Below the pieces are notes generated by a model. That model searched no databases. It saw only the letters and a program-made list of their open reading frames with translations, and had not been told where the DNA came from. A program made the translations under genes and the position numbers. Shown piece after piece: positions 13,452 to 35,870 of a stretch of DNA of 64,000 nucleotides (positions within the stretch are counted from its first letter, which is position 1; each line of letters begins with the position of its first letter). The DNA comes from Geodermatophilus obscurus DSM 43160 (GTDB lineage Bacteria; Actinomycetota; Actinomycetes; Mycobacteriales; Geodermatophilaceae): NCBI RefSeq assembly GCF_000025345.1, contig NC_013757.1, positions 3,038,001 to 3,102,000 of the forward strand, in the 5' to 3' direction.

Positions 13452-14171
13452 ATGGCTGAGGATTCCCTGCGGGCCCTCGGTCCGGACCGCAGCGCAGGCG
13501 GTGGACAGTCCACAGCTCTGCGGGGAGCACACCGTCTGACGGTCGGCGTGCTCACCACCCTCTACGTGGCCGTGGCGCTGCTCGGTGCCCTGGGTGCCGG
13601 TCTCATCGTGATGTTCGTCGTGGTCCCCGCAAGCGGACTGCTGGGCGCTGTGGTCGCTCGAGCAGTCCATCGAGCGCTCCACCCCGGTCTGGAGGCTCCC
13701 TTCACGCTCTACCTGCCCGCCGCGGTCAGGACCGGTCTGTTCGGTCCCTTCGTCATCGGCATGGACTCCCTCGGTGAGGACAGCGTGTACGTCTTCATCG
13801 TCCTCACCCTCCTGTGCACGGTGGCGGGTGTGGGATGGGCTCACGCACTCGGCTCGGACGACGCCGTTCCACGGCCTCAGGAGCCGTCGCGGCTGCCGGA
13901 TGCCGAGCTCTCCTCCCTGCGCGACCTCCTCGGTGCTCTGCCCGTCGACGAGCTGCTGCACGAGTGGCGCTGGAGCAAGCAGCGGCTGCGCACCGATCCC
14001 CACAGGGCTGTCCAGCTCCGCGACCTCCTCCTCGAAGAGATCCAACAGCGTGACCCGGCAGGCTTTCGGGCATGGCTGCTCGACGGACTCGAGCGCGACC
14101 CCGGGGACCACATCCGCGGCGACGATGCCGGCGGGACGATGACAGGCCGGCCTTCCGGGCCGGGCCGCTGA
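13452..14171 (+). CDS. uncharacterised membrane protein with C-terminal RDPxGF domain (paralogue 1)
   Basis: 239 residues. Two hydrophobic hairpins (about residues 28-70 and 88-130, the second GLFGPFVIGMDSLGEDSVYV) are followed by a soluble helical C-terminal domain of about 75 residues. That domain holds LPVDELLHEWRWSK and EEIQQRDPAGFRAWLLDGL and ends PGDHIRGD. The protein at 17099-17818 has the same length and layout, with matching ALFAPFVMGIHQLGDRGV and DELERRDPRGFDHWVLDG. A third gene at 33389-34012 shares only the C-terminal domain. I recognise no named family or function; a membrane-tethered protein-interaction module is a guess. ATG at 13452 follows GGGGAC. Confidence 0.75.
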   Translation: MAEDSLRALGPDRSAGGGQSTALRGAHRLTVGVLTTLYVAVALLGALGAGLIVMFVVVPASGLLGAVVARAVHRALHPGLEAPFTLYLPAAVRTGLFGPFVIGMDSLGEDSVYVFIVLTLLCTVAGVGWAHALGSDDAVPRPQEPSRLPDAELSSLRDLLGALPVDELLHEWRWSKQRLRTDPHRAVQLRDLLLEEIQQRDPAGFRAWLLDGLERDPGDHIRGDDAGGTMTGRPSGPGR

Positions 14172-14339
14172 TCCGCCGGTATCGCAGACCGCGACGCGAC
14201 GGTGACCGGACGAGGTCTGGCGACCGGCAGCCGCGTGCCCGCCGCCCCATCCCAGCGCGGTCGGCTGCGTCGCCGTCCCCCGCAGCTGCGGACGACCGCT
14301 GCACCGGCCGCGAGGCCGGTCCCGCCGTCTTGACCGCGA

Positions 14340-15516
14340 GGTGAGCAGCTGCCCTCGGGGAGGTGCAAGACGTCGCGACCGGGGCACGTGCCGGGCCCTG
14401 CGCTGAAGGGGACCAGCGGCCAGTCCTCCCCCCCGTGCGCCCGCGCAGCCACAGCTCGGGGGCGAACCGGTGCGCCTCGGGCAACCGGGTGGAGTCCCGG
14501 TGGAAGAACGGCGTGAAGACGAGCACCGAGGCGCCTGCCGGGAGCACGCCGCTCTCCCAGCGCGTCGCCCCGGTGGTGTCCCGCAGGATCGCCGGCGTGG
14601 TCGGCCACAATCGCAGCGACTCCAGGAGGACGGCGCGCAGGTACGGCAGGTCGGGCGCCGCCGGCAGCTCGGTCCGGGCCCGCGGCACGGCGTCCGGGTG
14701 GGCGGCCAGCAGGGCGAGGGCCCGGAAGGAGGCCCACGTCATCGCGTCGAAGGCGAACAGCCACTGCGGGATCTGCTGGTGTGGCTCCGTTCCCGGGGCG
14801 GCCGGGGTACCGGCCGCCAGGCCCGCCAGGCTCCGGGGCTCGGCCGCCTGTACGTAGTCGGCCATCCGCTGCAGGAACCGCCGGCGAGTGGTCGGCGCCG
14901 ACGGGGCGAGCAACGAGTAGTTGGCCCTGCGGCGCAGCCGGAGGAGGTCGTCGGTCACGTCCTCGTCGTCTCGCGCCCCGTCACCCAGGACGGCGCGGCG
15001 GATCGCCCGCCACCAGGCTGCCGACCAGGTTCCCCAGGTGAGCTCACCGGCCTGGTCCACCTCGGCGACGAGGCGCTCGGCCTCCTCGGCGACCGCGACG
15101 CTGATCGGACCGGCGAGGCGGTGCACCGGGGACCCGGTGTCGAGAACGGTCTCGTTGAACGGACGCCGGCGGGCCGTCTCCTCCGGCCCGGAGATGAGAA
15201 CACCTCCGGTTTGGAAGTGGGCAAGTGCCGCGGACTTCTCCCGGGTGGCTGCGGTGAACGGCCGGGCGTCCCGGCCAGCACGCGCTGCACGTGTTCGGGC
15301 GACAGGACGACGGTGAGCTCTCGGCCGGGGATCCGCACCCGCACCGGACCGGGCCCGTAACGGTCGCGCAGCCGTCGCATCCAGCGGACCGCGCGGGCGT
15401 CCGCGCCGGTCCGCTCGGCCAGGGCCCTCGCACGCGGACGGCGGACGATCGCGCCCCGCGCGACAACGGGGGAGCACGACCGTCGCCACGGTCCGGGCCC
15501 CGTCGGGGACGGACAT
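14340..15516 (-). pseudogene. cytochrome P450, frameshifted
   Basis: Pieces of one bacterial P450 lie in consecutive frames on the minus strand. They are the N-terminus MSVPDGARTVATVVLP at 15516; ALAERTG with VRVRIPGRELTVVLSPEHV around 15310-15430; a long central part with LRAVLLESLRLWPTTPAI, the K-helix ExxR; and the haem-ligand loop FSAGPGTCPGRDVL at about 14365-14410 in another frame. At least three frame changes are needed (near 15460, 15270 and 14440), and the region after the cysteine loop is unrecognisable. It was probably a monooxygenase and is now dead. The equally broken Rieske/reductase pair at the window start could have been from a similar pathway, but they are 14 kb apart. Confidence 0.75.
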
Positions 15517-15554
15517 CGCGGGGACGAGCGGTGACCCCGGCCTCACGCCGGACG

Positions 15555-15734
15555 TCATCGGCGGCCGACATGCTCGGCGGAGCCTGTACGAGCCGACACC
15601 GCCCGCCAGATGACCAGACCCAGCAGGGCCGAGCCGAGCACCAACAGCACGACGACCCAGAGCGCCAGCTCCAGCAGCGTCCCCAGGAAACCACCGGCCA
15701 GCGCCAGCAGCAGGACGAGCACGATCCACAACAC
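15555..15734 (-). CDS. small two-span membrane protein
   Basis: 59 residues, almost wholly hydrophobic: two spans (about 1-20 and 22-43) followed by a short polar tail SARTGSAEHVGRR. GTG at 15734 has a perfect AGGAGG 5 nt upstream, which is why I call it real despite its size. It precedes the P450 pseudogene on the same strand by 38 bp. Function unknown; small proteins of this type are common near stress genes in actinobacteria. Confidence 0.6.
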   Translation of the reverse strand: MLWIVLVLLLALAGGFLGTLLELALWVVVLLVLGSALLGLVIWRAVSARTGSAEHVGRR

Positions 15735-15745
15735 GGAGACCTCCT

Positions 15746-16502
15746 CGGAAGAAGTGGACGCCGACCATCTGCCTCGGGCGGAGACCCGCACACGGTGCGT
15801 CCCCGGCATGGACGGCGCCTCGGGGGTTGCCGGGCCCGGGCACCGGCACGGCACAGGGCTCGGACGCCGACACGTCGATGCCGTCGAGCGCATCGGCCGG
15901 CGCTGCGACCCGCTGTCCCGGGGCACGGTGTGGCCACCGGTCACGGGATCCGCCCCGAGCGGGTCGGGGCTCTGCCTCGGCCGTGGTCGAGGAAGGAGGG
16001 TCCTTCTCGGCTCGGGCGTGCCACGACCGGCGGCTGGAACCGGCCGCATCCCGACCGCTCACGCTCCTCGAGGTACTCGTCCGTCGCAGACGGGGGCCTG
16101 TCGATGTCACGCGCCCACCGTGACCGTGCCCAGGTCAACGGGCGACCGGGACGGGACGCTGCTCGCACTCGGCAACCTCGCCGATCACTTCTTCGCCGAC
16201 CGGGGCTCTCCTCCGCGTCCGGGGGCCGCCTCAGCATCGGGGTCGGCAAGCGCGGACGTGCACCGAGGGAGGAGGCCGGGAGCGTTGGTCACCAGGGCTC
16301 ACCCACCCACGGTCGACGTCCGGCGCCGTTCGGCCGCACACGGGGCGCTCCCGTCGGACCTGCGGATCCGGGCGGCCGGCGCCGCGTCAGCCGTGATCCG
16401 CCGATCCGTGACAGCCCACGACTCGAGGGCGGCATGGAGCCTCGCTCCGCCGCCGACCCCGGCACGGCTCCTGACGCCTCCGATCGAGGGACGGGCACTG
16501 AC
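15746..16502. other. no gene recognised
   Basis: About 750 bp divergent region between the small membrane protein and the HPF-like gene. I recognise no family on either strand and no strong hairpin or repeat. Confidence 0.35.
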
Positions 16503-17099
16503 ATGACCGACCATCCACACGACGCACCCCTCCGCGACGAGCACACGTCCGGCGGCGGACGAGGGCGGGCCTGGTCCACGCCGACGAGCCGCTCACGCCA
16601 CCGGTCGCCCTCGGGTGACGGCAGGTTCGCCGAGATCTCGGGCCGCTCACCGGACGACGCCCCCGGCGAGCCCGGCACGGCCACGGTCGCAGGCTCCCTC
16701 CGACTCGCTGCCGGACTCGGCGAGGGGGAACGCCGTCTCCTGGTGAGGCGACTGGCGCGCCTGGACGCCCAGCTGGCCCGCTACCGAGCCGACCAGGTCG
16801 ACATGGAGCTGTCCGTCAAGGACCGAGGGGGCCGTGGCCAACGCCTGACCCTGGAGTGCTGGATCGCAGGTCGTCCACGTCTGGTGGCCAGCTCGGCGGA
16901 CCACGACCTGGACACGGCCGTGAGCCGAGTACGCGAGGGGATGCGACGCCAGCTCGACGACACCGCCACCCGACGCGAACCCCGGAACAACCGCCTGCTG
17001 CGGCGCTCGACCCGAACCGCCCGCGGGACGCCGAAGCCGGAGCCGGACGGGCTCACCGTCGACGTCCGACCGGCGACCCCGTCTCCGGAGGTCCACTGA
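16503..17099 (+). CDS. HPF/RaiA-like ribosome-associated protein (short form)
   Basis: 198 residues. A disordered N-terminus of about 65 residues, rich in Gly, Arg, Ser and Asp, precedes an alpha/beta domain resembling the ribosome hibernation factor fold: RLLVRRLARLDAQLARY, VDMELSVKDRGGRGQRLTLE, WIAGRPRLVASS, DLDTAVSRVREGMRRQLDD. The tail has the RREPRNNR motif. Classical HPF would bind the 30S decoding site. This protein lacks the C-terminal dimerisation domain of long HPF, so a stress-time ribosome role is an inference. The stop TGA at 17097-17099 overlaps the ATG of the next gene, so the two are coupled. Confidence 0.65.
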   Translation: MTDHPHDAPLRDEHTSGGGRGRAWSTPTSRSRHRSPSGDGRFAEISGRSPDDAPGEPGTATVAGSLRLAAGLGEGERRLLVRRLARLDAQLARYRADQVDMELSVKDRGGRGQRLTLECWIAGRPRLVASSADHDLDTAVSRVREGMRRQLDDTATRREPRNNRLLRRSTRTARGTPKPEPDGLTVDVRPATPSPEVH

Positions 17100-17818
17100 T
17101 GCCGGATCGGACGGAGCGAACGGACCACGGGCCGAGCGAGTTGGAGCGATCCCTGGTCCGAGTGGGCAGGCGGGCCCTCGGCATCCTCTACGGAGGAGTG
17201 GCGCTCTTCGGCGTCCTGCACCTGGACCCGTCGACCACGCTGCTGGTCGTGCCGTTCTTCGCCGTCCTCGTCATGGGTCTGCGCTGGTCGATGCACCAGG
17301 CGCTGCTCATCGAGGCCACCCCGTCGATCGCGTTCCTACTCCCGGCCGCGACCGTGGGTGCGCTGTTCGCACCGTTCGTCATGGGCATCCACCAGCTGGG
17401 CGACCGTGGCGTGCACCTACTGCTCGCCCTGGTCGGACTGCTGACGATCCTGGGCTCCCACTGGCTCTGCCGCCTGGAGGTGCCGACGGGACAGGCCCCC
17501 GTCGACGGCCAGTCCGCTCCACCACCGCCCCGGTCGACGGAGGCGCCCCATCACCCACCCCATGAGCTGCTGCAGAGCCTGACTCTCGAGGACCTGGTCG
17601 ACGAGTGGCGGCGCAGCGACGAGCTGTTCCACCCGACGTCTCTGGCTGACCCCCGCGCGGCCGCCGACTGGCGAGGTGGCCTCCTCGATGAGCTCGAACG
17701 CCGTGACCCGCGCGGTTTCGACCACTGGGTGCTCGACGGCATGACCCGTGGACCCGAGCACCACATCCGTGCTGGCTCGGATGGAGCCGCCACCGGATCG
17801 GACGACCCGACTCGGTGA
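17099..17818 (+). CDS. uncharacterised membrane protein with C-terminal RDPxGF domain (paralogue 2)
   Basis: 239 residues, exactly as long as paralogue 1 at 13452-14171 and collinear with it. Two hydrophobic hairpins (about 28-62 and 78-123) are followed by a Pro-rich linker (residues about 133-155) and the soluble domain with LEDLVDEWRRSDEL, LLDELERRDPRGFDHWVLDG and PEHHIRAG. Start ATG at 17099 overlaps the HPF-like gene's stop (TGATG), implying co-translation with a ribosome-associated protein. No family name or function is known to me. I infer a duplication pair separated by the P450 region. Confidence 0.78.
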   Translation: MPDRTERTDHGPSELERSLVRVGRRALGILYGGVALFGVLHLDPSTTLLVVPFFAVLVMGLRWSMHQALLIEATPSIAFLLPAATVGALFAPFVMGIHQLGDRGVHLLLALVGLLTILGSHWLCRLEVPTGQAPVDGQSAPPPPRSTEAPHHPPHELLQSLTLEDLVDEWRRSDELFHPTSLADPRAAADWRGGLLDELERRDPRGFDHWVLDGMTRGPEHHIRAGSDGAATGSDDPTR

Positions 17819-18025
17819 CGTCCGGCGACGAGTGCCCAACGGGACACGCGTCAGCAAGCCCGCCCGCGGGTACGCGCCACCGGACTGCAGACGAAGTCCC
17901 CGACTACGCCGACAGCCAGCCGCCGCCGATGCGGGCAAGGGGAGGACGGCAACCGTGATGGTGGCCTGCCGGACGATAGCCGCGGCCACGGCCCCGATTA
18001 CTTCCACGAGCACACCGGGACAGCC

Positions 18026-20872
18026 GTGATCCTGCTCGTGGCCCTGGTGGCCATGGCGGTGCTGGCCGTGGCCGCCCCACTCCTGTACCGCCGGCTTGGC
18101 CGCGACACCGGCTACCTGCTGGCCGCCGGGTTCGCGGGGGTGGGCGGGCTGCTGGCGACCGGAGCGCCCACCGTGCTCGACGGCGGAGCGGTGACCGCCT
18201 CGTGGACCTGGCTGCCGTCCCTGCAGGTGTCGTTCGCCCTGCGTCTCGACGGACTGGCGGGGCTGTTCTGCCTCATCGTGCTGGGCGTCGGCGTGCTGAT
18301 CATGGCCTACTCCCCCCGCTACATGGGCGACAGCAGCCGGAACGGCGTCGTCTACGGGCTCCTGACCCTGTTCGCCGGCGCGATGCTGGGCCTGGTCCTC
18401 GCCGCCGACGTCGTGCTGCTCTACGTGTTCTGGGAGCTGACCACGGTCTGCTCCTTCGTCCTCATCGGGACGGCCGGGCAGGTGGCCGTGAAGCCGGGTC
18501 GCCGGGCGCTGCTGATCACCGCGGCCGGGGGCCTGGCTCTGCTGCTCGCGGTGATCATGCTGTCGGTCGTGGTGGGGACCACCGACCTGGCCACGATCCT
18601 CGCCGAGCGGGACCAGGTGCTCGCCTCTCCGTTGGCCTGGCCCATCGGTGCACTGATCGCCACGGCGGCCTTCACCAAGTCCGCCCAGTTGCCCCTGCAC
18701 TTCTGGCTGCCCGGCGCCATGGTGGCGATGACCCCGGTGAGCGCCTATCTGCACGCGGCGACCATGGTCAAGGCCGGCATCTACCTGCTGATGCGCACCA
18801 CCCCGCTGTTCGCCGATCAGCCGGCCTGGTCGGCGCTGCTGATCACCGTGGGGTTGGCCTCGGCGGTGGCCGGCGCGTTCATGGCGCTGCGGGAGCACGA
18901 CCTCAAGGCGATCCTGGCCCACTCGACGGTCAGCCAGCTGGGCCTGTTGATCGCCGTGATCGGCGTCGGCACACCCGTGGCGCTGGCCGCTGCCATGCTG
19001 CACACCTTCGCCCATGCGCTGTTCAAGGCGACGTTGTTCATGCTGGTCGGGATCATCGACAAGGAGACCGGCAGCCGCGACATCCGGGAGCTGTCCGGCC
19101 TCCGCCGGGTCATGCCCGTCACCGCCACGGTCACCGGCCTCGCGGCCCTGTCCATGGCCGGCGTGCCGCCGATGCTGGGGTTCGTCAGCAAGGAGTACCT
19201 GTTCCAAGGGCTGCTGCAGGCGGACTTCGCCCCCTGGGCCGGTGCCGTCGCCGGAGCCCTGGGCGTCACCGCCTCCGCGCTGACCTTCGCCTACGGCATG
19301 CGGATCGTCTACGGCGCCTTCGGTGGACCGACCCGGCAGCCGGACCTCTACGAGCCGTCGGCAGCCTTCCTCGCGCCCGCCGCGCTGCCGGCTCTCGCCG
19401 GCCTGGCGTTGGGTCCCGGCATCGACCTGCTCAATCCGATGGTGACCCGTGCGGCCGCCGACGTGGTCTACGTCGGAGCCGTGCCGGATTTCTCGTTCTG
19501 GCACGGTCTGAGTCCCGAGGTGGTCATGTCGGCGATCACCATCGCCGTCGGCAGCCTCCTGTTCCTGCGGCGGAAACCGGTCGACCGGGCTCTACAGCGC
19601 CTGCGGTTGCCCGACGGGGCAGCGCTGTTCGACCGCACCCACGATGCGGTCCTCGCCCTGGGATCCGCCGTCGGGCGGCCGGACCGGGCCACCGCCCTCG
19701 CCGCTCACCTCGCCCGGCCCGTGATCGTCCTGGTGGTGCTGGGCGCGGTGGGGCTGACCGCCGTCGGAGGGCTGCCCGCACGCCTACCGACCGACCAGCC
19801 CCTGGACTGGCCGGTACTGGCACTGCTCGCCCTCGCAACCGGGGGCACCGTGATCACCCGCTCCGCCTTGGCCGCACTCGGGCTGGTCGGGATCGTCGGC
19901 CTCGTGGTGGCGGTCTGGTTCCTGCTGGCCGGCGCCGCGGACGTCGCTCTGACCCTTCTGCTCGTCGAGGTGCTGACCGCGGTGGTCGCCGTCCTGGTGC
20001 TCCGTTCCCTGCCGCCGCGCTTCGGGCGCGCCGGTCGCCCGGGGGCGGTCCTCGCCGCCGGCCTGGGCATCGCGTTCGGAGTGGCCGCCGCGACCGCCAC
20101 GTTCGCCTTCACCGGACGCCGCGGGCTCTCCGAGACCGGCGCCTGGTTCCTGGAGTCCGCGGAGCCGGAGACCGGCGGGACCAACGTGGTCAACACCATC
20201 CTCGTCGACTTCCGCGGCATGGACACCATGGGCGAGGCGATCGTGCTCGGTGCCGCGGCCATCGGCCTGCTCGTCCTGCTCGGCGGGGAGCCCACCCAGC
20301 GCGGGTCCGGCGGCGCGCCGACCCAACCCGGGCAGACCGACGGCGGTCTCGTGCTGCAGGTCGCCGGCCGGGTCCTCATCCCCGGGATGGCCGTGCTGTC
20401 GGCCTACCTGCTGTGGCGCGGCCACGACGAACCCGGTGGCGGCTTCATCGCCGCACTGGTCGGCGGGATCGCGGTCGGGCTGCACCAGGTCGGCAGGGGC
20501 TTCCCCGGGCTGCCGCGCCTCCTGCGGCCGGAGCCGCTCGTAGGGGTGGGCCTGCTCCTCGCACTCGGCACCGGAACGGCCGCCGCTCTCCAGGGCGATC
20601 CGTTCCTCACCCCGTTCGACGTCCCGGTGCTGAGCACAGTCGGCATCGGCTCGGCCCTGCTCTTCGACCTGGGCGTGTACCTCCTCGTGCTGGCACTGCT
20701 GGTCACGGCGTTCGACCGGCTCGGCGCCGGGGCGGTCCGACCGTCCCCCTCGCCTGGTGACGTCCGGCCGTCGGTGCCGGCAGCGCACTCCCGGCCCGCT
20801 CCCGGCGACCGTCCGCACGGCCGTCATGGCGCAGCCGCCGAGGCGCTGCCCACCCGACGGGCAGCGTCATGA
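18026..20872 (+). CDS. mrpA: Mrp Na+/H+ antiporter subunit A, fused with subunit B
   Basis: 948-residue large subunit of the multisubunit Na+(K+)/H+ antiporter. Residues about 1-500 are the complex-I NuoL-like channel; lysine and glutamate in spans are visible in WELTTVC, FTKSAQLPLHFWLPGAM and HAATMVKAGIYLL. After further spans, the C-terminal 150 residues (GGLVLQVAGRVLIPGMAVL, GHDEPGGGFIAALVGG, TVGIGSALLFDLGVYLLV) are the MrpB/MnhB domain, so no separate mrpB exists. GTG at 18026 directly precedes the first span. First gene of a six-gene operon in which every junction overlaps by 4 nt. Confidence 0.93.
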   Translation: MILLVALVAMAVLAVAAPLLYRRLGRDTGYLLAAGFAGVGGLLATGAPTVLDGGAVTASWTWLPSLQVSFALRLDGLAGLFCLIVLGVGVLIMAYSPRYMGDSSRNGVVYGLLTLFAGAMLGLVLAADVVLLYVFWELTTVCSFVLIGTAGQVAVKPGRRALLITAAGGLALLLAVIMLSVVVGTTDLATILAERDQVLASPLAWPIGALIATAAFTKSAQLPLHFWLPGAMVAMTPVSAYLHAATMVKAGIYLLMRTTPLFADQPAWSALLITVGLASAVAGAFMALREHDLKAILAHSTVSQLGLLIAVIGVGTPVALAAAMLHTFAHALFKATLFMLVGIIDKETGSRDIRELSGLRRVMPVTATVTGLAALSMAGVPPMLGFVSKEYLFQGLLQADFAPWAGAVAGALGVTASALTFAYGMRIVYGAFGGPTRQPDLYEPSAAFLAPAALPALAGLALGPGIDLLNPMVTRAAADVVYVGAVPDFSFWHGLSPEVVMSAITIAVGSLLFLRRKPVDRALQRLRLPDGAALFDRTHDAVLALGSAVGRPDRATALAAHLARPVIVLVVLGAVGLTAVGGLPARLPTDQPLDWPVLALLALATGGTVITRSALAALGLVGIVGLVVAVWFLLAGAADVALTLLLVEVLTAVVAVLVLRSLPPRFGRAGRPGAVLAAGLGIAFGVAAATATFAFTGRRGLSETGAWFLESAEPETGGTNVVNTILVDFRGMDTMGEAIVLGAAAIGLLVLLGGEPTQRGSGGAPTQPGQTDGGLVLQVAGRVLIPGMAVLSAYLLWRGHDEPGGGFIAALVGGIAVGLHQVGRGFPGLPRLLRPEPLVGVGLLLALGTGTAAALQGDPFLTPFDVPVLSTVGIGSALLFDLGVYLLVLALLVTAFDRLGAGAVRPSPSPGDVRPSVPAAHSRPAPGDRPHGRHGAAAEALPTRRAAS

Positions 20873-21210
20873 CCGCCGCGATCGCCGTGGGCCTCCTGGT
20901 GGCCGGGGGTGTCTACCTCGTCCTGCAGCGCGGCCTGGTCCGCGTGGTCATCGGCTTCATCCTGCTCGGGCACGCGGTCAACGTCCTGGTGCTGTCCGCG
21001 GGCGGGATGGCCCGGCGCGGCCTGCCGCTGATCGGACAGGGTGACCCCGATCAGGCCGCGGACCCGCTGCCGCAGGCCTTCGTGCTGACCGCCATCGTCA
21101 TCACCTTCGGCATCACCGTGTACCTGCTCGCCCTCGCGCGGGCGGGCAGCGCAGCGGACGAGGAGAACCGGTCCGACGGCCCGGCCGACCCGGACGGGGA
21201 GTCGCGGTGA
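20869..21210 (+). CDS. mrpC: Mrp antiporter subunit C
   Basis: 113-residue NuoK-like subunit with three membrane spans: residues about 3-23, 27-50 (VVIGFILLGHAVNVLVLSAGG) and 70-95 (QAFVLTAIVITFGITVYLLAL). The PLPQAFVLTAIVI motif is diagnostic for MnhC/MrpC. The C-terminus is a short acidic tail. ATG at 20869 overlaps the mrpA stop (ATGA), and its own stop overlaps the GTG of mrpD. Confidence 0.95.
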   Translation: MTAAIAVGLLVAGGVYLVLQRGLVRVVIGFILLGHAVNVLVLSAGGMARRGLPLIGQGDPDQAADPLPQAFVLTAIVITFGITVYLLALARAGSAADEENRSDGPADPDGESR

Positions 21211-22766: not shown

Positions 22767-23182
22767 GCAACCCGGACGCCTCGTCGGCACCGCGCCGGGC
22801 GCTCCTCCGCAGCAGGCGCGTCGCGGCCTTCGCCGGCAACTACCTGCTGCGGTTCCTGCGGGCCAACTACGAGGTGGCGAAGGAGATCGTCACGCCCGGT
22901 GACGGGCTGGCGCCCGCGATAGTCGAGGTGCCGCTGCGCAGCCGCACCCGGTTCGAGATCGCCTCGTACATCAGCCTGGTCAGCCTCTCCCCGGGCACGG
23001 TGGCCCTGGCGCTGAGCGAGGACCGCTCCCGGCTGGCCGTCCACGGCATGCACGCCGGGGACCCGGAGCACTTCCGCGCGGACCTGCGCGCGCTCGAGGA
23101 GCAGATGCTGGCGGCCTGGCGCTCGGGCGACGCCGGCTACGCCGTCGCTGATGACGCCCCTACCGAGAGGAGAACGACGTGA
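22763..23182 (+). CDS. mrpE: Mrp antiporter subunit E
   Basis: 139 residues, an MnhE-type subunit. LLRFLRANYEVAKEIVTPG and IASYISLVSLSPGTVALAL are the family's recognisable stretches. The protein is shorter and less hydrophobic at the N-terminus than subunits of about 160 residues with two leading spans; only RRVAAFAGNYLLRF precedes the core, so the first two spans usual in MrpE seem to be missing or reduced. ATGA overlap with mrpD and GTGA overlap with mrpF. Confidence 0.88.
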   Translation: MSNPDASSAPRRALLRSRRVAAFAGNYLLRFLRANYEVAKEIVTPGDGLAPAIVEVPLRSRTRFEIASYISLVSLSPGTVALALSEDRSRLAVHGMHAGDPEHFRADLRALEEQMLAAWRSGDAGYAVADDAPTERRTT

Positions 23183-23439
23183 TCCTGCTCGACGCCGCCC
23201 TCGTCGTCCTGGCGCTGGCACTCGTCGTGGCGACGGTGCGCCTGGTCGTGGGCCCCACGGACGCCGACCGTGCGCTGGGCGTGGACCTCGGCTTCGCGGT
23301 GGTGATCGCTGCCGTCGCTCTGCTGGCCGTGCGCCTGGACGCGCCCGCCCTGCTCGACCTGGTCCTCGTCGCCACCCTGGTCGGGTTCCTGTCGACGGTG
23401 GCCTTCGCCCGGCTGGTGGCCACGAGGTCGTCGTCGTGA
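23179..23439 (+). CDS. mrpF: Mrp antiporter subunit F
   Basis: 86 residues with three spans: ILLDAALVVLALALVVAT, then the conserved GPTDADRALGVDLGF, AVVIAAVALLAVRLD and LLDLVLVATLVGFLSTVAFAR. The GPTxxDR motif is diagnostic for MrpF. GTG at 23179 has GAGGAG about 8 nt upstream. It overlaps mrpE and mrpG by 4 nt each. Confidence 0.93.
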   Translation: MILLDAALVVLALALVVATVRLVVGPTDADRALGVDLGFAVVIAAVALLAVRLDAPALLDLVLVATLVGFLSTVAFARLVATRSSS

Positions 23440-23795: not shown

Positions 23796-23829
23796 GCGGA
23801 CCGCTGACGTGCGCCGTCCCGGCAACAGC

Positions 23830-27035: not shown

Positions 27036-27043
27036 GGCCGCGG

Positions 27044-27316
27044 TCAGCGGGTCCGGGTGCCGCGACGACCGCTGACGGCGACGTAGACGCCGAGCACGAT
27101 GATCGCTCCGATGATGGAGCCGATCCACCCGGCCGGTGCCAGTTCGAAGCCCCGGCCGCTGATCAGCCCGCCGAGCAGGTTGCCGACGAACGAGCCGATG
27201 ATCCCCAGCACGATGGTGGCGACGATGCTCAAGTCCTGCTTGCCGGGGATGACGGCCCGGGCGATGAACCCGGCGACCAGGCCGATGACGAGCAGGACGA
27301 TGAGGTTCCAGATCAT
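27044..27316 (-). CDS. GlsB/YeaQ/YmgE family membrane protein (copy 1)
   Basis: 90 residues with three Gly-rich spans: IWNLIVLLVIGLVAGFIARAV, LSIVATIVLGIIGSFVGNLLGG and WIGSIIGAIIVLGVYVAV, typical of the transglycosylase-associated/GlsB family of general-stress membrane proteins. ATG at 27316 has AAGGAG 6-7 nt upstream. First gene of the GlsB-GH15-zwf run. A second member lies at 28240-28524. Biochemical role unknown. Confidence 0.9.
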   Translation of the reverse strand: MIWNLIVLLVIGLVAGFIARAVIPGKQDLSIVATIVLGIIGSFVGNLLGGLISGRGFELAPAGWIGSIIGAIIVLGVYVAVSGRRGTRTR

Positions 27317-27500
27317 GATGTCTCCTTGTTGGGTACTGGGTGTCGGGGTCCGCGGTCGCGAGCTAACCGGGTGGCGCTGTCGTGCGGCCGCGCGGGGTCT
27401 GACGTGTGCACATCGGCATCGTGGTGGTGACCGAGCCAGGCCGGTGTCGAGTTCGTCCTCCCCGTCGGGCGCTCCTCCTCGGCGCGGACGGAGCTGCCGA

Positions 27501-28139
27501 TCAGGTGCGGCCAGCGGGCGGGGCGGCCAGCAGCACCGGGCACCGGGAGCGCGTGCTCAGGGCGGTCGCCGCGCTGCCGAGCACCGCGCGGGACAGCCCC
27601 CTGCCCCGTCGTCCCACGACGATGAGGTCGACGTCCTCCGCTTCGGCCAGCTCCAGCAACGCGGCCGCGGGCTGGCCGGCTACGACCTGCGTCTGCACGA
27701 CGGGTCCCTCGGGGAGGCTGCGCCGGTGCCGCGACAGCAGGTCCTCGGCCCGGGCGCACTCCTCGTCGTGTCCACCGTCCGCGGCCTCCTTGCTCACCAC
27801 ACTCGCGAGGAGGAACCGGCCGGCGGTCGGTGCCGCCAGCCGGGTGGCGGCCCGTACAGCCTCCTCCGACTCGGGGGACCCATCCACGCCGATCAGCACG
27901 CACGGCCCGCGATCCGCCGTCCGCTCGGTGGAGGCGTGCGCCCCGGCCCCCTTGAGTCGCCGGGACCTCTCCTTGGCGCGCTCGACGGCGATCGGCACGA
28001 TGAGGGGACCGAGGACCGCCCCGATCAGCAGCCAGCTGCGGTCCCGGTGACCGTGCCGGTACAGGAGCACCACCACGGCGCCCACGCCGATGACCACCCA
28101 GGGCAGCGGCACCAGCAGCGTCCAGTAGGGGAAGTCCAT
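27501..28139 (-). CDS. membrane-anchored universal stress protein
   Basis: 212 residues. Two spans (about 6-27, LLVPLPWVVIGVGAVVVLLY, and 35-53) and a basic linker precede a UspA domain from residue about 80: CVLIGVDGSPESEEAVRAAT, then VDLIVVGRRGRGLSRAVLGSAATAL. The last is the ATP-binding G-2x-G-9x-G(S) motif of the nucleotide-binding Usp class. A membrane tether on a single Usp domain is unusual. ATG at 28139 lacks a strong ribosome-binding site. Stands between the two GlsB genes on the same strand, which supports a stress cluster. Partner or signal unknown. Confidence 0.82.
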   Translation of the reverse strand: MDFPYWTLLVPLPWVVIGVGAVVVLLYRHGHRDRSWLLIGAVLGPLIVPIAVERAKERSRRLKGAGAHASTERTADRGPCVLIGVDGSPESEEAVRAATRLAAPTAGRFLLASVVSKEAADGGHDEECARAEDLLSRHRRSLPEGPVVQTQVVAGQPAAALLELAEAEDVDLIVVGRRGRGLSRAVLGSAATALSTRSRCPVLLAAPPAGRT

Positions 28140-28239
28140 ACGGGGTCACCCGTTCTCCACGTGCCGGCCCGGGTTCGGGCGACGCCCGGCGGGCCGGCGG
28201 GACGATCGGTCGTCGGATCGGCAGCGGACGGCCACTCGC

Positions 28240-28524
28240 TCATGCACCGGGACCACGCGGCAACGACCGGTGTGCGATCCACCGGTCGTAGACCAGCAAC
28301 ACGATCACCGCGCCGATGAACGAGCCGATCAGGCCGGCGGGGCCGAACCCGCGGTCCCGGAGGCCTCCGGTCACCAGCCCCAACAGGAGTCCGCCGACGA
28401 GAGAGCCGGCCACCCCGAGCACGAGGGTGGCGAGCAGGCTCATCGATTCCTTGCCGGGCACGACGAGGCGGGCCAGCAGGCCCGCGAGCAGGCCGATGAT
28501 GAGCAGCCAGAGCAGGGACAGCAC
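28240..28524 (-). CDS. GlsB/YeaQ/YmgE family membrane protein (copy 2)
   Basis: 94 residues with three Gly/Leu-rich spans (LWLLIIGLLAGLLARLVVPG, LLATLVLGVAGSLVGGLLLG, GLIGSFIGAVIVLLVYDRW). It resembles copy 1 at 27044-27316 but is clearly diverged. GTG at 28524 follows GGAGGAGC at close range. Upstream of the Usp gene by 100 bp on the same strand. Confidence 0.88.
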   Translation of the reverse strand: MLSLLWLLIIGLLAGLLARLVVPGKESMSLLATLVLGVAGSLVGGLLLGLVTGGLRDRGFGPAGLIGSFIGAVIVLLVYDRWIAHRSLPRGPGA

Positions 28525-28599
28525 AGCTCCTCCAGATGTCGTCGTGGTGCACCGGTGGGGGTCGACTCGAGCCGAAAGACGGATCCGGCACGTTCCAGG

Positions 28600-28917
28600 T
28601 CAGCTGGGTCGTGGACCCGAGAGCACCGGGACAGCGCGCAGGCGCTCGTCCGGTGCCGTCACCGGCACGGGGCCGGCCACCAGCTGGAGCAGTCGTGTGA
28701 CCACCGGCGAGGCCCCGCAGATGGTCGCGTTCGCGTCGAGGACCGGGGCCAGCCCATGACTGTCGGCGTAGTCGACGTGGGTGAGGTCCACCAGGGCGGA
28801 CCGCCCCTCGGTCAGCCGGACGTGGTCGAGCATGGCCGAGAGCAGGGCCGCGCCGGACACGTCCAGGGCGCCGATCACGGTGACCACCGGCCGCGGTCGG
28901 CTGCGGTCGACGCACAC
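28600..28917 (-). CDS. STAS domain protein (anti-sigma factor antagonist-like)
   Basis: 105-residue STAS domain: VVTVIGALDVSGAALLSAML, ALVDLTHVDYADSHGLAPVL, then a final helix. The DSHG stretch sits where SpoIIAA-like antagonists carry the phosphorylated Ser, so switching by a kinase/phosphatase pair is plausible. GTG at 28917 has GGAGGAG 6 nt upstream and fits the family length. Alternative: a leaderless ATG at 29043 would add 42 Arg/Gly-rich residues. I prefer the shorter form, with the promoter at 29051 giving a 126-nt leader. No anti-sigma factor or sigma gene is adjacent. Confidence 0.75.
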   Translation of the reverse strand: MCVDRSRPRPVVTVIGALDVSGAALLSAMLDHVRLTEGRSALVDLTHVDYADSHGLAPVLDANATICGASPVVTRLLQLVAGPVPVTAPDERLRAVPVLSGPRPS

Positions 28918-29050
28918 GGTGAACTCCTCCGGCACGCCCGGGGCCGTGTCGGAGCAGCCCTCCTGCTCGTGGTGTCGCCCCGACGCCGTGCCCGCCGGGA
29001 GACCGCCGGTACGGAGCCGGTTCCGCTTCCGCTGTACTCGCATGGGCCGG

Positions 29051-29056
29051 ACGCTA
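29051..29056 (-). promoter_or_regulatory. -10 element TAGCGT before the STAS gene
   Basis: Minus strand CCTAGCGTC, then ATG 7 nt after the hexamer. The same CCTAGCGTC-N-ATG arrangement, with identical spacing, occurs before the gene ending at 47276. It suggests a TANNNT-type -10 with transcription starting at or near the ATG. Confidence 0.35.
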
Positions 29057-29140
29057 GGAGTCGTCCGGACGGGCGGCGACGGCATCGCCCGGACGACATC
29101 GGCGTCCGGCATTGCCGACGGCGGGCAGGCACGGGGACGC

Positions 29141-30358
29141 TCACTCCCTGACCAGCGGGCGCTGGGGCCAGCCGAGCAACCGTGCGCCGGTCACGGCCAC
29201 GAGCAGGGGCAGGTGGTGGTCGGGCTCCCCGGCGTCGTAGCCGGTGAGTTCCCGCACGCGCTGCAACCGGTAGGTGACGGCCCGGACGCTCAGGTGGAGC
29301 CGGCGGGCCGTCTCGGCGGCGTTCCGCCCGGCGGAGAAGTAGGCCTCCAGCGTCTCGACCAGCGGCGCTGCTCCTCCGCGAGCACCCGTCAGCGGCTCGA
29401 GGACCGTGTGGACGAGGTCGGACAGGGCCGTCTCGTCGCGCGCGAGGACGCGGTACACCAGCAGGTCGGCAGCCTGGACCACCTGCTGCCGCAGGCTCAG
29501 GCGGCTGGCCGTCTCGAGGGCCTCCACCGCCTCCTGGTAGGACCGTTGCACGCCCCGCGGCCCGGTGTGCGGCCGTCCGGCCCCGGCCCGCCACGGCCCC
29601 CCGCGCGCGGTCCGGGACACGAGGGGCCCGACGATCCCGGCGACCTGCCGACCGAGGTCGGCACAGCCATCCGCGTCCCGTGGACAGCTGAGGACGCAGA
29701 CGAGCCGACCGTTCTTGGCCGCTGCGAGCAGCCCCCTGTCCCCGAAGCGGGCCCGCAGGGCGTCCTCTGCAACTCCGCGGACACCACTGCCCGAGTCGAT
29801 GGGCCGCTGCCCCTCGGCCACCACCACCACGTGGGCACCGTTCAACTGCAGCCCGAAGAACTCGGCGCGCTCGATCAGCAGGCCGACCGGGGCCAGACCG
29901 GCCAACAGGTCGTCGACGAACTCGAGCCGGAACTCCTCCTCGCGCCGGACGACGAGGCGTTGCGCCTCGACGTAGCCCGCGGTCAGAGCGGCCAGCGCGG
30001 CGTCGGCGGCTCGCCACACGGCCTCCCCGATGCCCATGAGCTCCGCCGACCGGACCGGCCGACCCCGGGATGCGCGGAGGAGCTCGGGCAGGCGGGACCA
30101 CAGCCGGCGCGACGCGTTCATGTGCACGTCGACAAGAGCCGGTAGGCCGACCCCCATCGCGACCGCCTCACCGCCCAGTCGGCGACAGGCCGCCTGCTCC
30201 TCGGCGCTGAGCATCCGGCCGGTCCGGGCCACCGTCATCAAGGCCCGTGGATAACCGTCCAGTAGTGCAGGAGGAAGACCGTGTCGAGCGCTGGCCGCCC
30301 CTGCCACCTCGGACAGCACCTCGTCCACGTGGCTGCCGTTCACCGTGGCGCTGCGCAT
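29141..30358 (-). CDS. PucR-type helix-turn-helix transcriptional regulator
   Basis: 405 residues. The N-terminal half is helical and sensor-like (residues about 1-160), followed by a GGDEF-related CdaR middle domain (AEFFGLQLNGAHVVVVAEG onward). The C-terminal HTH_30 domain is VETLEAYFSAGRNAAETARRLHLS with RAVTYRLQRVRELTG (residues about 345-385). Regulators of this class control purine, sugar-acid or aromatic catabolism, often neighbouring genes; the target here is unknown. ATG at 30358 is chosen because GGGAGG lies 6 nt upstream; upstream ATGs at 30364 and 30382 are poorly placed. Located 20 bp after the response-regulator gene on the same strand. Confidence 0.85.
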   Translation of the reverse strand: MRSATVNGSHVDEVLSEVAGAASARHGLPPALLDGYPRALMTVARTGRMLSAEEQAACRRLGGEAVAMGVGLPALVDVHMNASRRLWSRLPELLRASRGRPVRSAELMGIGEAVWRAADAALAALTAGYVEAQRLVVRREEEFRLEFVDDLLAGLAPVGLLIERAEFFGLQLNGAHVVVVAEGQRPIDSGSGVRGVAEDALRARFGDRGLLAAAKNGRLVCVLSCPRDADGCADLGRQVAGIVGPLVSRTARGGPWRAGAGRPHTGPRGVQRSYQEAVEALETASRLSLRQQVVQAADLLVYRVLARDETALSDLVHTVLEPLTGARGGAAPLVETLEAYFSAGRNAAETARRLHLSVRAVTYRLQRVRELTGYDAGEPDHHLPLLVAVTGARLLGWPQRPLVRE

Positions 30359-30378
30359 GACCATCCTCCCTGTCGCCC

Positions 30379-31038
30379 TCATGCCTCGAGGAGCCCGGTC
30401 CTGATGGCGTATCGGGTGAGCTGCGTGCGATCCCGCATGTCGAGCTTCTGCAGGATGTTCGCCCGATGCCGCTCCACCGTCTTCGTGCTGATGACCAGGA
30501 GCGCCGCGATCTCTCTCGAGGAACAGCCTTCGGCGATGAGCTTGACGACCTCGGCCTCGCGGGCCGTGAGGACCCGCTCGGGCACGGGTTCACCGCGGCC
30601 GGCCCGGTGCAGGTGCTCGCGCATGAGGGTCGTCAGCGCGTCCGGGTAGATGAACGGCTCGCCTCGCACCGCGCCCCGGCAGGCCGAGACGAGGTCCTGG
30701 TCGGCGACGGACTTGAGCACGTAGCCGGAAGCGCCGGCCTTGAGGGCCTCGAAGAAGTACTGCTCGTTGTCGTACATGGACAACATCAGGATGGGCAAGG
30801 CCGGAGACCTCCTGGACATCTCCCGCGCCGCGTGCAGACCAGTGAGCCGGGGCATGGCGACGTCCAGCACGGCCAGGTCGACCTCGACCTCACGCGCGAG
30901 CGCAACGGCCTGGGCGCCGTCCCCGGCCTCGGCCACGACGGTGAAGTCGGGCTCGCTCTCGAGGATCAGGCGCAAGCCGCGGCGGACCAGGGCGTGGTCG
31001 TCAGCGAGCAGGACCCGTGTCGGCTGACCGCCGGTCAC
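30379..31038 (-). CDS. NarL/LuxR-type response regulator
   Basis: 219 residues. Receiver domain with acidic pocket ADDH (residues 12-15), phospho-acceptor in LAVLDVAMPRLTG (Asp about 59) and the lysine in GYVLKSV. LuxR HTH at the C-terminus: LTAREAEVVKLIAEGCSSREIA, then ISTKTVERHRANILQKL. GTG at 31038 overlaps the stop of the kinase gene by 4 nt, so this is its cognate partner. Targets unknown. Confidence 0.93.
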   Translation of the reverse strand: MTGGQPTRVLLADDHALVRRGLRLILESEPDFTVVAEAGDGAQAVALAREVEVDLAVLDVAMPRLTGLHAAREMSRRSPALPILMLSMYDNEQYFFEALKAGASGYVLKSVADQDLVSACRGAVRGEPFIYPDALTTLMREHLHRAGRGEPVPERVLTAREAEVVKLIAEGCSSREIAALLVISTKTVERHRANILQKLDMRDRTQLTRYAIRTGLLEA

Positions 31039-32036
31039 GACCGCGCCTCACGCGCGTGTGTGGGCACCAGCAGCCGGACGTCGGTACCCCCTGCCTCGGA
31101 TGTCGAGATGTGGAGGGTGGCGCCGACGAGCAGCGCCCGTTCCCGCATCCCCCGGACGCCTGCCCCCTCCACGCTCCCGTCCATGCCCCGCCCGTCGTCC
31201 GCGATCCGGAGCAGCACCCCCGCTGCGCCCGCAGTCGGGGCCAGCTCGACGAGGACCTGCTCCGCCCCTGCGTGTCGGGCGACGTTGGTCAGGGCCTCCT
31301 GGGCCACTCGGTAGATCACCAGTTCGGTCTCCGGATCGAGGGGAGGTAGGGACGGGCTGAAGGTGCGCTGCACCGCTGCACCGGTGAGCCGGGCGTGTGC
31401 GCTCAGGAGGGAGGTGAGGGCACTGCACAACCCCAGGTCGTCCAGGACACCCGGGCGCAGGCGGCGCACCACCTGACGCACCTCGTCGAGGCTGGCCCGC
31501 GCCGTCTCCTGGGCGATGCCGATCTCCGGTGCCAGGTCAGCAGGAGCGCGATCGGCGATCCGTCGCAGTCCGAGCAGGACAGCCGTCAGGCTCTGCCCGA
31601 CCTCGTCGTGCAACTCCTGGGCCACCCGACGCCGCTCGTCCTCCTGGGCCGCCAACGCGCGGCCGGTACTGGCGGCACGTTCGGCCTCCAGCCGGTCCAG
31701 CATCGCGTTGAAGGTGCTGATGACGTCCCCGACGGGGCCGTTGCCCTTCTCGGGGAGACGGTGACCCGGCCGCAGGAGGTCGACGTCCTCCATCAGCTGC
31801 TGGAGCCGGTACAGCGGCGCCAGCGTCGCGCGCACCAGCGCCGCGTTGGCGAGCACGAGCAGGGCCAGGCCCCCGAGCAGCACGAGGAGCTCGCCGGGCA
31901 GGATCGGAGAGGACACCGTTGCCGGTGATGTCGCCAGCACCACCAACCCGACGGCGAACACCGCCGCGTTGATCAGGCAGACCCGCCAGAAGAGGGAGAT
32001 CTCCATCTGGTCGGACCTGCGGCGTCGGTCGCCCAT
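31035..32036 (-). CDS. NarL-family sensor histidine kinase
   Basis: 333 residues. Two spans near the N-terminus (about 14-33, 45-66) with a very short outside loop, then a HAMP linker (LAPLYRLQQLMEDVDLL). HisKA_3 with phospho-accepting His follows in RRRVAQELHDEVGQSLTAVL, then an HATPase with N-box EALTNVARHAGA, DDGRGM and GVRGMRERA. The small outside loop suggests sensing within or near the membrane. ATG at 32036 is chosen over an upstream in-frame ATG that adds low-complexity residues; ATG at 32006 is also possible. Operon with the response regulator. Confidence 0.9.
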   Translation of the reverse strand: MGDRRRRSDQMEISLFWRVCLINAAVFAVGLVVLATSPATVSSPILPGELLVLLGGLALLVLANAALVRATLAPLYRLQQLMEDVDLLRPGHRLPEKGNGPVGDVISTFNAMLDRLEAERAASTGRALAAQEDERRRVAQELHDEVGQSLTAVLLGLRRIADRAPADLAPEIGIAQETARASLDEVRQVVRRLRPGVLDDLGLCSALTSLLSAHARLTGAAVQRTFSPSLPPLDPETELVIYRVAQEALTNVARHAGAEQVLVELAPTAGAAGVLLRIADDGRGMDGSVEGAGVRGMRERALLVGATLHISTSEAGGTDVRLLVPTHAREARS

Positions 32037-32498
32037 CTCCCTCGTCCTCGTCCAGGAACCACGTGTAGCGCTCGATTCGATGGTGGCCGTCAGGCAGGGC
32101 TGCGCCAAGCGCGCGCAGCGAAGATGGGGTCCAGACCCCATCTCCCGCCGTCGCCGACGGCATCCTGAGCGCAGGACGCCACCGGTGATCGACGCGCACG
32201 TGCCCCGGCGGCGGGCACCGCCACCAGGTCCGTGAGCGGAAGCTGATTGCCGGGATCAAGCAACCAGGGACTGCGGGGATCGTCCCGTCATGGCGTACCG
32301 CCCGGTGTCCGACCGTCCATACCGTTCGGCCCGGGAGCAGGCCAGGACGTCGGTTCTGCGCGTCGCGCTGGACCGTGCGGAGAGGACGGTGGTGTACGAG
32401 GTGACGACACACACGGAAGGTGCGGGACCGTGGGCCTGTGCGCGGCCCGCCGTCCCGACAGCCGTGGCCTCCCCGCTCGCGGGTGGACGGACGGAGCC

Positions 32499-33119
32499 GT
32501 GTCACCCGTGAGGCGGGCGGTGCGGCCCGCGGCCGTCGTCCTCCTGCTGCTGTCGCCGATGGCGCTCAGCGGGTGCAGCGCCGGTCAGGTCACGCAGACC
32601 GCCACGCAGGCGCGCGACAAGACCGGCGGGGCCGGCCAGGTGGAGGACATCAGCGTCCACGCCGTCCAACTCGTCCATCCGCCCGGTGGTGTCTACGAGG
32701 TGGGCGACCAGGTGGAGGTGACGATGGCGATCGTGAACAGCGGGCGCGTCGACGACCGGCTGATCGACGTCACCGGTCCCGAGTTCAGCGGCGCCTCGGT
32801 CAGTGAGTCCCCCACGGCCGCGGACACGCCTCACGAGACGAGCTATTCCGAACCCGACCCCGCCGCCACCGTGGCGTTGAGCGGGCAACCGCCCGCTGTG
32901 GGGACGACCGCCGTGGACGTCCTCGTCCCGGCTCCCGGTGCCGTCTTCGTCGGCAGTAGTGCCCCGACGGTCGTCCTGACGGGGCTGACCCGCCGCATCG
33001 ACGCGGCGCAGTCGATGGAGTTGACCCTCACCTTCGCCCGGGCCGGTCAGACGACCGTTCCCGCGATCACGGGATCTCCGCCCGACGTCCTGCCTCGAAC
33101 CTCCGTCGTCGACCTCTAG
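32499..33119 (+). CDS. putative lipoprotein, PCuAC/LpqE-like
   Basis: 206 residues. Signal peptide of lipoprotein type: basic N-terminus, hydrophobic PAAVVLLLLSPMALSGC with lipobox LSGC, then a Ser/Thr/Gln-rich linker (GQVTQTATQARDKTGGAG). The mature part is a beta-rich domain (VHAVQLVHPPGGVYEVGDQ, VEVTMAIVNSGRVDDRLIDV) similar to the actinobacterial LpqE and copper-chaperone-like (PCuAC/DUF461) lipoproteins. The metal-binding Met/His pair of true PCuAC proteins is not evident. GTG at 32499 or 32508; the first is shown. Divergent from the two-component pair. A broken paralogue lies at 38661-38850. Confidence 0.75.
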   Translation: MSPVRRAVRPAAVVLLLLSPMALSGCSAGQVTQTATQARDKTGGAGQVEDISVHAVQLVHPPGGVYEVGDQVEVTMAIVNSGRVDDRLIDVTGPEFSGASVSESPTAADTPHETSYSEPDPAATVALSGQPPAVGTTAVDVLVPAPGAVFVGSSAPTVVLTGLTRRIDAAQSMELTLTFARAGQTTVPAITGSPPDVLPRTSVVDL

Positions 33120-33206
33120 CCCGAGGGCGGCGTGACCCGCCCGGGCAAGCAGTGCGGCAGTCCTTCGTCGCATCCGAGAACCGCCGACCCATGTCGCCGA
33201 CCTGCT

Positions 33207-33233
33207 CGCCGAGGCCGGTCGGTCACCTCGGCG
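33207..33233. terminator. hairpin between convergent genes
   Basis: CGCCGAGG at 33207-33214 pairs perfectly with CCTCGGCG at 33226-33233, 11-nt loop. It lies between the lipoprotein gene end (33119) and the convergent membrane-protein gene end (33389), and could serve both strands. Confidence 0.4.
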
Positions 33234-33388
33234 GCCCGCTCCCGCAAATGCGTTGATCGTCGAGGGCCTACGGGGGACGTGTGGCCCATGCTGCAGTGCC
33301 GGGACGGCCGTCGCTCGCCGTCCGCCGGCTCCGGCCCGGTCGGGTGGGTGCGCGTCCACCGGAGCAGGGGGTACGGCTCCTCCCCCGG

Positions 33389-34012
33389 TCACCGCTCCGC
33401 CGTCGCAGGGAAGAACGGGGTCGGATCCGTGGCGGCCGGCGCCTCGGCGAGCCAGCGCGTCAAGCCCTGCGGGTCCCGCCGCTCCAGTTCATCGAGGTAC
33501 TCCACCCGCAGTTCGACGAGCATCTGAACGGGCCTGGGGTGGGCCACGCGCTGCAGCGCTGCGGACGTGATCTGCCAGGCGCGGCACAGTTCAGCGGTGC
33601 CCAGGTCCTCGGTCAGGATCGTCGCCGGAGGACCGACCGGCTCCCGGGCCTGCGCGGCCACAGGTCCCTCCCGCGCTGCACAGGACCGCGCCCGGTAGCG
33701 GAGTGGCAGCCCCGCGAGGCACAGCGCCGCGGCGATGACGAGACTGCCCCACCCCTGGATGAGTGCCAGGCCGAACACCGACAACGTCAGGACCGGGTAC
33801 GACAGGGCCGCACCGAGGGTGCGCGTCCTCAGGTGGGGTGCCGCTCCACCTCCCCACACGAGCCAGCCGTACACCGTTCCCTGCGCCGCCATGCCGCCTC
33901 CGATGAGGAGCAGCCCGGCAACCGACAGATGTCGGAGTGCGCCCAGGAGGCCGTGAGCCAGCGCCCCGAGCAGGCTCGCCCACCACAGGCCGCGGTAGAT
34001 CGACCAGGACAC
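33389..34012 (-). CDS. membrane protein with C-terminal RDPxG domain (paralogue 3)
   Basis: 207 residues. Four hydrophobic spans (about 8-28, 31-54, 62-82, 86-101) form a membrane part different from paralogues 1 and 2. The C-terminal 75 residues are the same soluble domain: EDLGTAELCRAWQITSAALQ, MLVELRVEYLDELERRDPQG, LTRWLAEA, then a Pro/Phe tail. GTG at 34012 has GGGAGG upstream and begins just before the first span. The domain is thus combined with at least two unrelated membrane regions in this window. I do not know its function. Confidence 0.7.
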   Translation of the reverse strand: MSWSIYRGLWWASLLGALAHGLLGALRHLSVAGLLLIGGGMAAQGTVYGWLVWGGGAAPHLRTRTLGAALSYPVLTLSVFGLALIQGWGSLVIAAALCLAGLPLRYRARSCAAREGPVAAQAREPVGPPATILTEDLGTAELCRAWQITSAALQRVAHPRPVQMLVELRVEYLDELERRDPQGLTRWLAEAPAATDPTPFFPATAER

Positions 34013-35659: not shown

Positions 35660-35870
35660 CGGTCGGCCACGCCTGGTGCAGCAGGCCGAAGGCAACCCGC
35701 AGGAACCGCTCATACTCAGCCCGGTGCTCCAGCTGCACCCGTTCGCGGTCATCCTGGCCGTCACTGCTGGCGCAGTCATCTCCGGCGCCCTCGGCGCCTT
35801 CCTCGCTGTCCCGATGGCCGCCATCCCGGCCCGGGTCGTCGACTACCTGCGTGGACGCCGTCCTGCTGCG
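35660..35870 (+). pseudogene. AI-2E family transporter, C-terminal fragment
   Basis: Reads QQAEGNPQEPLILSPVLQL followed by HPFAVILAVTAGAVISGALG and AFLAVPMAAIPARVVDYL. This is the last two membrane segments of an AI-2E/PerM family permease, which normally has about 350 residues. No upstream part is present, and the frame runs on into unrelated sequence. A relic of a deletion. Confidence 0.65.

Follow-up and report, generated by a model that had tools for sequence, protein, structure and literature searches.

An unnamed actinobacterial family of membrane proteins with a predicted three-helix C-terminal domain and its linkage to a PucR-STAS-GlsB gene cassette

What do three membrane proteins of one actinobacterial locus share at their C-termini, and with which genes does the shared part travel? 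The question was raised by a stretch of 64,000 nucleotides from Geodermatophilus obscurus DSM 43160 (NC_013757.1, positions 3,038,001 to 3,102,000), which is called the window below. A sequence-only reading had proposed that the proteins at 13452-14171, 17099-17818 and 33389-34012, here named P1, P2 and P4, end in the same soluble domain of about 75 residues, that no annotated family covers it, and that it is re-used on different membrane proteins beside stress and ion genes. The bacterial family of the strain, the Geodermatophilaceae, comprises desiccation- and radiation-tolerant soil bacteria. We found that P1, P2 and P4 are members of an unnamed actinobacterial protein family with real homology of the domain, and that accessory copies of the gene are tied by linkage and by the presence or absence of a whole block to a cassette of genes for a PucR-type regulator, a STAS-domain protein and a GlsB-type small membrane protein.

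The open reading frames (ORFs) of P1 (13452..14171, plus strand; domain at about 13908-14135) and P2 (17099..17818, plus strand; domain at about 17549-17794) both read as 239 residues, as proposed. P4 was encoded only on the minus strand of 33389-34012, so the strand had to be corrected while the domain itself was present (33389-33616, behind four predicted N-terminal helices at 33671-34006). Its start is GTG at 34012, preceded by GGGAGGTGG, the ribosome-binding site and the start both being read from the sequence. A leave-out profile made from the 17 non-window rows of alignment A2 was searched against the 749 six-frame window ORFs of at least 40 amino acids and recovered exactly these three proteins, with E-values of 4e-23 for P4, 7.4e-18 for P2 and 2.2e-14 for P1; the fourth-best window ORF reached 0.39. 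When the three domains were shuffled 3,000 times with their composition preserved, the highest score was 9.2 bits, compared with 48.6-76.6 bits for the real domains, and the similarity is therefore not merely that of a charged low-complexity stretch.

Pairwise BLASTP of the domains gave 1e-15 for P1 and P2 (42% identity), 1e-7 for P2 and P4, and 9e-6 for P1 and P4. The membrane parts of P1 and P2 were also related (4e-11); no similarity of the P4 membrane part to those of P1 and P2 was detectable (0.67 and 4.2); at the sequence level it was thus fair to call this region different. With a membrane-only profile lacking the window rows, P2 was found weakly (0.0009, with unrelated ORFs close by at 0.006 and 0.014), and neither P1 nor P4 was recovered. 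A fourth domain copy of the genome lies outside the window (G000:C1:704805-705020).

Among 20 diverse domain rows, the columns L, W, R, L, E, R and P were invariant and D, R, P, W and L nearly so. The invariant columns fall in and around the core motif LDELERRDP..F..WL......DP; the motif quoted earlier was slightly over-specific for these rows. AlphaFold2 modelled P4 with helices at residues 3-28, 31-53, 59-86 and 88-114, followed by 139-155, 159-179 and 181-190. The whole-model pTM was only 0.48, and block-mean pLDDT values over residues 131-200 were 86-96. Modelled alone, as had been suggested, the domain gave a confident three-helix fold with a mean pLDDT of 90.7 and a pTM of 0.78. The predicted layout is therefore an N-terminal membrane part of four helices and a C-terminal domain of about 75 residues with three helices.

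The relatives came from 25 named loci in Geodermatophilaceae genera, Pseudonocardia, Kribbella, Actinokineospora, Nocardioides, Marmoricola and one record titled Streptomyces; domain proteins from 24 of these loci gave 26 relatives, L075 being left out because a contig end cuts it. By a simple hydropathy scan, 9 relatives have four segments, 14 have three, 2 have two and 1 has none; the same scan gave 2, 3 and 1 segments for P1, P2 and P4, respectively. Since the counts varied in this way, the number four rests on the AlphaFold2 model. The proposed re-use on different membrane proteins was thus partly right: hydrophobic N-terminal segments were present in 25 of the 26 relatives, and one ORF seemed to be soluble. 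This ORF, from Nocardioides and 99 residues long (L074:7905-8204, also given as 7908-8207), carries the domain without a membrane segment, and the locus contains a further copy, of the membrane type, at a distance of 4.6 kb. The domain probably faces the cytoplasm. The N-terminus and the linker that follows the fourth transmembrane helix (TM4) contain more K+R than D+E, which fits an N-in/C-in arrangement.

The three window proteins and the 20 diverse domain rows had best Pfam E-values of 0.021 and 0.032, respectively, with printed scores below gathering, and the best NCBIfam match (E 0.11) scored 11.9 bits against a curated cut-off of 310 bits. The statement that no annotated family applies, and that no known Pfam family accounts for the pattern, therefore held for these proteins and rows. 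PADLOC returned 0 matches to the three window proteins at E-values up to 1, and the domain profile found nothing better than E 0.16 among PDB sequences. Foldseek gave no match at E ≤0.001, and the best Z-scores of the structural aligner (full model 5.6, domain 6.5) lay near those of unrelated helical rows. A likeness to ribosomal protein S15 (1a32, Z 5.3; 4a5u_B, Z 4.8) was dropped, as small helical bundles score alike and the S15 rows were mixed with Tsi2, encapsulated-ferritin and GPCR-fusion rows. SHOCT-type domains are likewise short C-terminal helical domains found on membrane proteins, but the motif here is another one and the Pfam scans held no SHOCT row. Among the papers listed by literature searches, which were not motif-based and left most subscription journals outside, none described the family. 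As far as these listings go, the neighbouring genes are of known kinds, and the membrane family and the four-gene cassette are new.

The domain gene was present in 85 of 96 sampled Geodermatophilaceae genomes, at 0 to 5 copies per genome; the analysis provides this unnamed family with a definite anatomy and a set of genetic partners. In wider samples it was rare, with at least 13 of 296 genomes of the class and at least 2 of 198 of the phylum, the own genome being counted each time; these counts are lower bounds because scoring was confined to the 19 and 29 top first-look candidates of each genome, respectively, and the phylum sample also takes in genomes of the own class. The other phylum match is doubtful (23 positions, a frame with a stop, E 7.8e-4). 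Among viral contigs, 39 stretches with the pattern held no relative, and neither did 70 stretches in genome contigs scanned with P2 alone. The tree, built from 62 proteins, set apart a core group (22 rows, support 100/100) that came wholly from the Geodermatophilaceae, a family assignment based on the named loci and on the place of the own core copy (L005) beside that of Geodermatophilus siccatus. An accessory group of 17 rows (96/91) joined the P1/P2-type copies of gene islands like that of the window with copies linked to PucR or STAS genes; P1 fell in a clade with L077_11, L080_8 and L081_8. Tandem gene pairs were seen at L072:7530-9054 and in G402:C30, G422:C18 and G428:C4.

The cassette itself was recognised in the window by its regulator gene (29141..30364, minus strand), whose product has the GGDEF_2 and C-terminal HTH_30 domains of the PucR class (Pfam, queried as 29141-30382, and homologue survey); the homologue in L136 was also examined. 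Beside it lie genes for a STAS-domain protein (28600..29112, minus strand; PF13466 at E 5.4e-5, below the gathering score, and cassette homologues) and a GlsB/Transgly_assoc small membrane protein (28240..28524, minus strand; PF04226 at E 9.2e-9, compared with 4.6e-10 for the L136 homologue). The window PucR had 45 homologues in 39 of the 96 Geodermatophilaceae genomes, in two identity tiers. Tier 1 (≥60% identity) occurred in 19 genomes, 15 of them other than the island genomes, and in 14 of these 15 a domain gene lay within 1.5 kb, G036 being without one. In the island genomes the distances were 2.5 kb (G006), 3.0 kb (G000), 6.6 kb (G020) and 13.4 kb (G009). None of the 26 tier 2 copies (45-48%) had a domain gene within 20 kb. 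Positions were matched by eye for these distances.

The non-island loci shared a single site downstream of orn, which we take to be the oligoribonuclease gene, and usually ahead of a converging chemoreceptor gene (Cache/HAMP/MCPsignal). In 17 genomes with an occupied site, PucR was present in 16, the domain gene in 16, STAS in 10 and GlsB in 4; as 8 of these loci had been chosen for holding the domain gene and 9 for holding PucR, the unbiased figure for the gene is the 14 of 15 given above. The fullest order, PucR, STAS, GlsB and domain gene, was seen in L134, L135, L136 and L138, and STAS and the domain gene overlap by 4 bp in L091. The empty sites were read in 19 genomes with orn but no tier 1 PucR: protein searches there found none of the four genes, six-frame searches found no domain, and orn directly abuts the chemoreceptor gene in 12 of the 19. 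These were 19 of the 23 genomes of genera g6 and g12 without a close PucR, with G050, G056, G402 and G428 left out. Apart from L133 and L091, the block was largely gained and lost as a unit, and the comparison of occupied and empty sites points to PucR, STAS and GlsB as candidate partners of the domain protein.

Neighbourhoods were taken from a codon-usage gene caller that missed some genes (orn in L156; the first 32 residues of P1), and the first survey covered 63 domain genes in 59 of 61 loci, the caller having given none in L075 and L090. The stress side of the neighbourhood proposed in the sequence-only reading was sharpened to PucR, STAS and GlsB, with HPF-like and Balon genes added in four genomes; by neighbourhood labels, Mrp ion-transport genes and Usp genes were seen in the islands only.

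PucR-type proteins are regulators, STAS domains are often switch partners, and GlsB-type proteins are small membrane proteins. The reading that we favour, and to which we give somewhat less than an even chance, is that the accessory copies serve as a membrane docking partner within a stress cassette of PucR, STAS, GlsB and the domain gene that is gained and lost. The membrane part would respond to the envelope state; a soluble cassette partner (STAS or PucR) would be docked at the membrane, and held or released there, by the C-terminal domain, which may be an interaction module. In the window lineage, the cassette may have expanded into an island that also carries a two-component system and hibernation factors. 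The cytoplasmic side, the docking and the direction of signalling are parts of this proposal that we infer, with gene context as the best clue.

Several observations weigh against it. In the first survey, a PucR or STAS gene stood immediately upstream in the same orientation for only 8 of the 63 domain genes, and all 8 fell in the accessory group. The core orthologue lies away from the cassette, beside genes presumably of rlmB and ispF type, and the Pseudonocardia group stands in another context, so the family also works without PucR and STAS. L133 has PucR and STAS without the domain gene and L091 has the domain gene without PucR; the parts of the cassette are thus separable. The empty genomes were selected by the absence of PucR, and their result is the absence of the other three genes only; moreover, the occupied site lies in a conserved block, and the genomes are therefore not independent events. 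P4 sits on a long branch (1.49) with uncertain placement, and only its position therefore connects it with the cassette. For topology the charge pattern is weak evidence: D+E outnumber K+R in the TM2-TM3 loop, which the N-in/C-in arrangement puts in the cytoplasm, and K+R prevail in the TM1-TM2 loop.

A possible but doubtful alternative to docking is that the protein is a small membrane transporter, a channel or an envelope-stabilising protein whose C-terminal domain serves only for dimerisation or for packing against the membrane. The membrane part has conserved glycines and matches FUSC_2 (0.021) and a holin family (0.017) in Pfam below threshold. These features are consistent with such a role, as is the co-occurrence with GlsB and, in the island, with Mrp genes, and the best row of the structural aligner was a dimerisation domain (2a26_B; Z 6.5, rmsd 1.8, 46 aligned). 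However, all of these family and structure matches were insignificant, and conservation is higher in the domain than in the membrane part, the opposite of what a transporter would lead one to expect.

The island raises another alternative, quite unlikely in our view, in which ribosomes loaded with HPF or Balon would be bound by the domain and kept at the membrane, after the example of YqjD in E. coli. YqjD, ElaB and YgaM of E. coli are membrane proteins that bind stationary-phase ribosomes, and the window family resembles them in a membrane-anchored soluble part, several paralogues per genome and a link to hibernation, here in the island only. According to PMC8778775, the membrane helix of YqjD is C-terminal and its ribosome-binding part N-terminal. 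This precedent is built differently, as the predicted membrane helices here are N-terminal to the soluble domain; no sequence relation is claimed.

The gene divergent from P4 (34455..35594, plus strand) encodes a Balon/Rv2629-like protein of baeRF family 2 (PF18844, E 6.9e-24), and phmmer matched its residues 29-369 to PDB 8v9k_z, "Ribosome hibernation factor Balon (Rv2629)", at E 6.6e-12, a similarity over nearly the full length in sequence terms. PMC10901736 describes stress-response operons as the typical place of Balon genes, with RaiA as their most frequent neighbour, and reports that mycobacterial Balon homologues bind the ribosomal A site. Close Balon paralogues (72-100%) were confined to 4 of the 96 Geodermatophilaceae genomes, the same four that hold the islands. 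An HPF/RaiA-like gene (16503..17099, plus strand) precedes P2, and its stop overlaps the P2 start at 17099 (TGATG). Such genes numbered 7 in 6 of the 96 genomes; 5 of the 7 lay directly 5' of a gene of the family, all in the four island genomes and one of them in front of a truncated copy, and all five junctions had a stop/start overlap (TGATG or GTGA). L082 has the order Balon, HPF-like, domain gene with overlapping ends, and L080 and L082 fit the pattern of Balon beside RaiA. Genomes with both a close Balon and an HPF-like gene were those forming the P1/P2 clade, in a tree that holds part of the gene copies.

Against the anchoring of ribosomes, the overlapping operon is known from one genus only, and among the 59 loci HPF-like or Balon labels (phmmer, E ≤1e-4, within six genes) occurred only in L077, L079, L080, L082 and the window. 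Of the HPF-like copies, two that come from another genus (L128, L129) do not adjoin the domain gene, and P1 and P4 lie outside the HPF operon. In L080 the coupled copy is truncated (5127-5411, 94 amino acids, membrane part only) at the end of the Balon-HPF-like operon, with a full copy 1.1 kb downstream. The HPF identity is itself suggestive only: the window protein scored 17.1 bits against a PF02482 gathering score of 23.7, the matches of 5/5 homologues were below gathering (best E 0.0028), a profile found 1imu_A (HI0257) as its sole PDB row at E 0.4, and the single sequence found no HPF chain in PDB.

It is very unlikely, though the overlapping gene order makes membrane storage of dormant ribosomes testable in Actinomycetota, that a hibernation operon of Balon, HPF-like and membrane protein exists in which the three-helix domain brings hibernating ribosomes to the membrane; if true, it would be membrane-bound ribosome storage built unlike that of YqjD. 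In the main text of PMC10901736 the word "membrane" occurs 0 times, so that paper does not describe a third, coupled gene for a membrane protein.

Usual helix-turn-helix domains have other helix lengths than the predicted second and third helices of 21 and 10 residues, and the highly improbable reading as a membrane-bound transcription factor with a DNA-binding domain of this type was rejected, since its HTH_33 matches (0.17 in P1; 0.032 in one A2 row) were far under the cut-off; by eye, the alignment rows are also rich in D and E.

Further genes of the window stand beside the cassette. The order histidine kinase, response regulator, PucR, STAS, GlsB, Usp occupies 27.5-32.0 kb on the minus strand, and PucR, STAS and GlsB follow a kinase and regulator likewise in L130 and L081. 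The histidine kinase gene (31035..32006, minus strand, start from the gene caller) matched PF07730, PF02518 and PF00672 when queried as 31035-32141, and the LuxR-type response regulator gene between it and PucR (30379..31038, minus strand) matched PF00072 and PF00196. P4 lies upstream of the kinase with one plus-strand gene between them (32508-33119), whose product matches the copper chaperone family PCu(A)C over part of its length and below the cut-off (E 1.8e-5). The Usp protein (27501-28139, minus strand) has a hydrophobic N-terminal segment before its Usp domain (81-204); Usp proteins start alike in L130, L079 and L081, and this is perhaps a membrane-anchored Usp.

DosR-type boxes were not enriched here, as GGGACN4GTCCC (≤2 mismatches) was found 76 times with 118 expected and GGACN4GTCC (≤1) 67 times with 88 expected. 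A small membrane protein (VLWIVLVLLLALAGG...) is encoded at 15555-15809 on the minus strand, and proteins resembling it occur in the islands L077, L079 and L082. At 36 kb, the plus-strand ORF 35676-36167 matched the last 56 profile positions of the AI-2E transporter family PF01594 just below gathering (E 3.1e-8) and is likely a gene remnant. On the minus strand at 13800-15400, ORF translations in more than one reading frame carry what we take to be cytochrome P450-like remains, probably those of a pseudogene.

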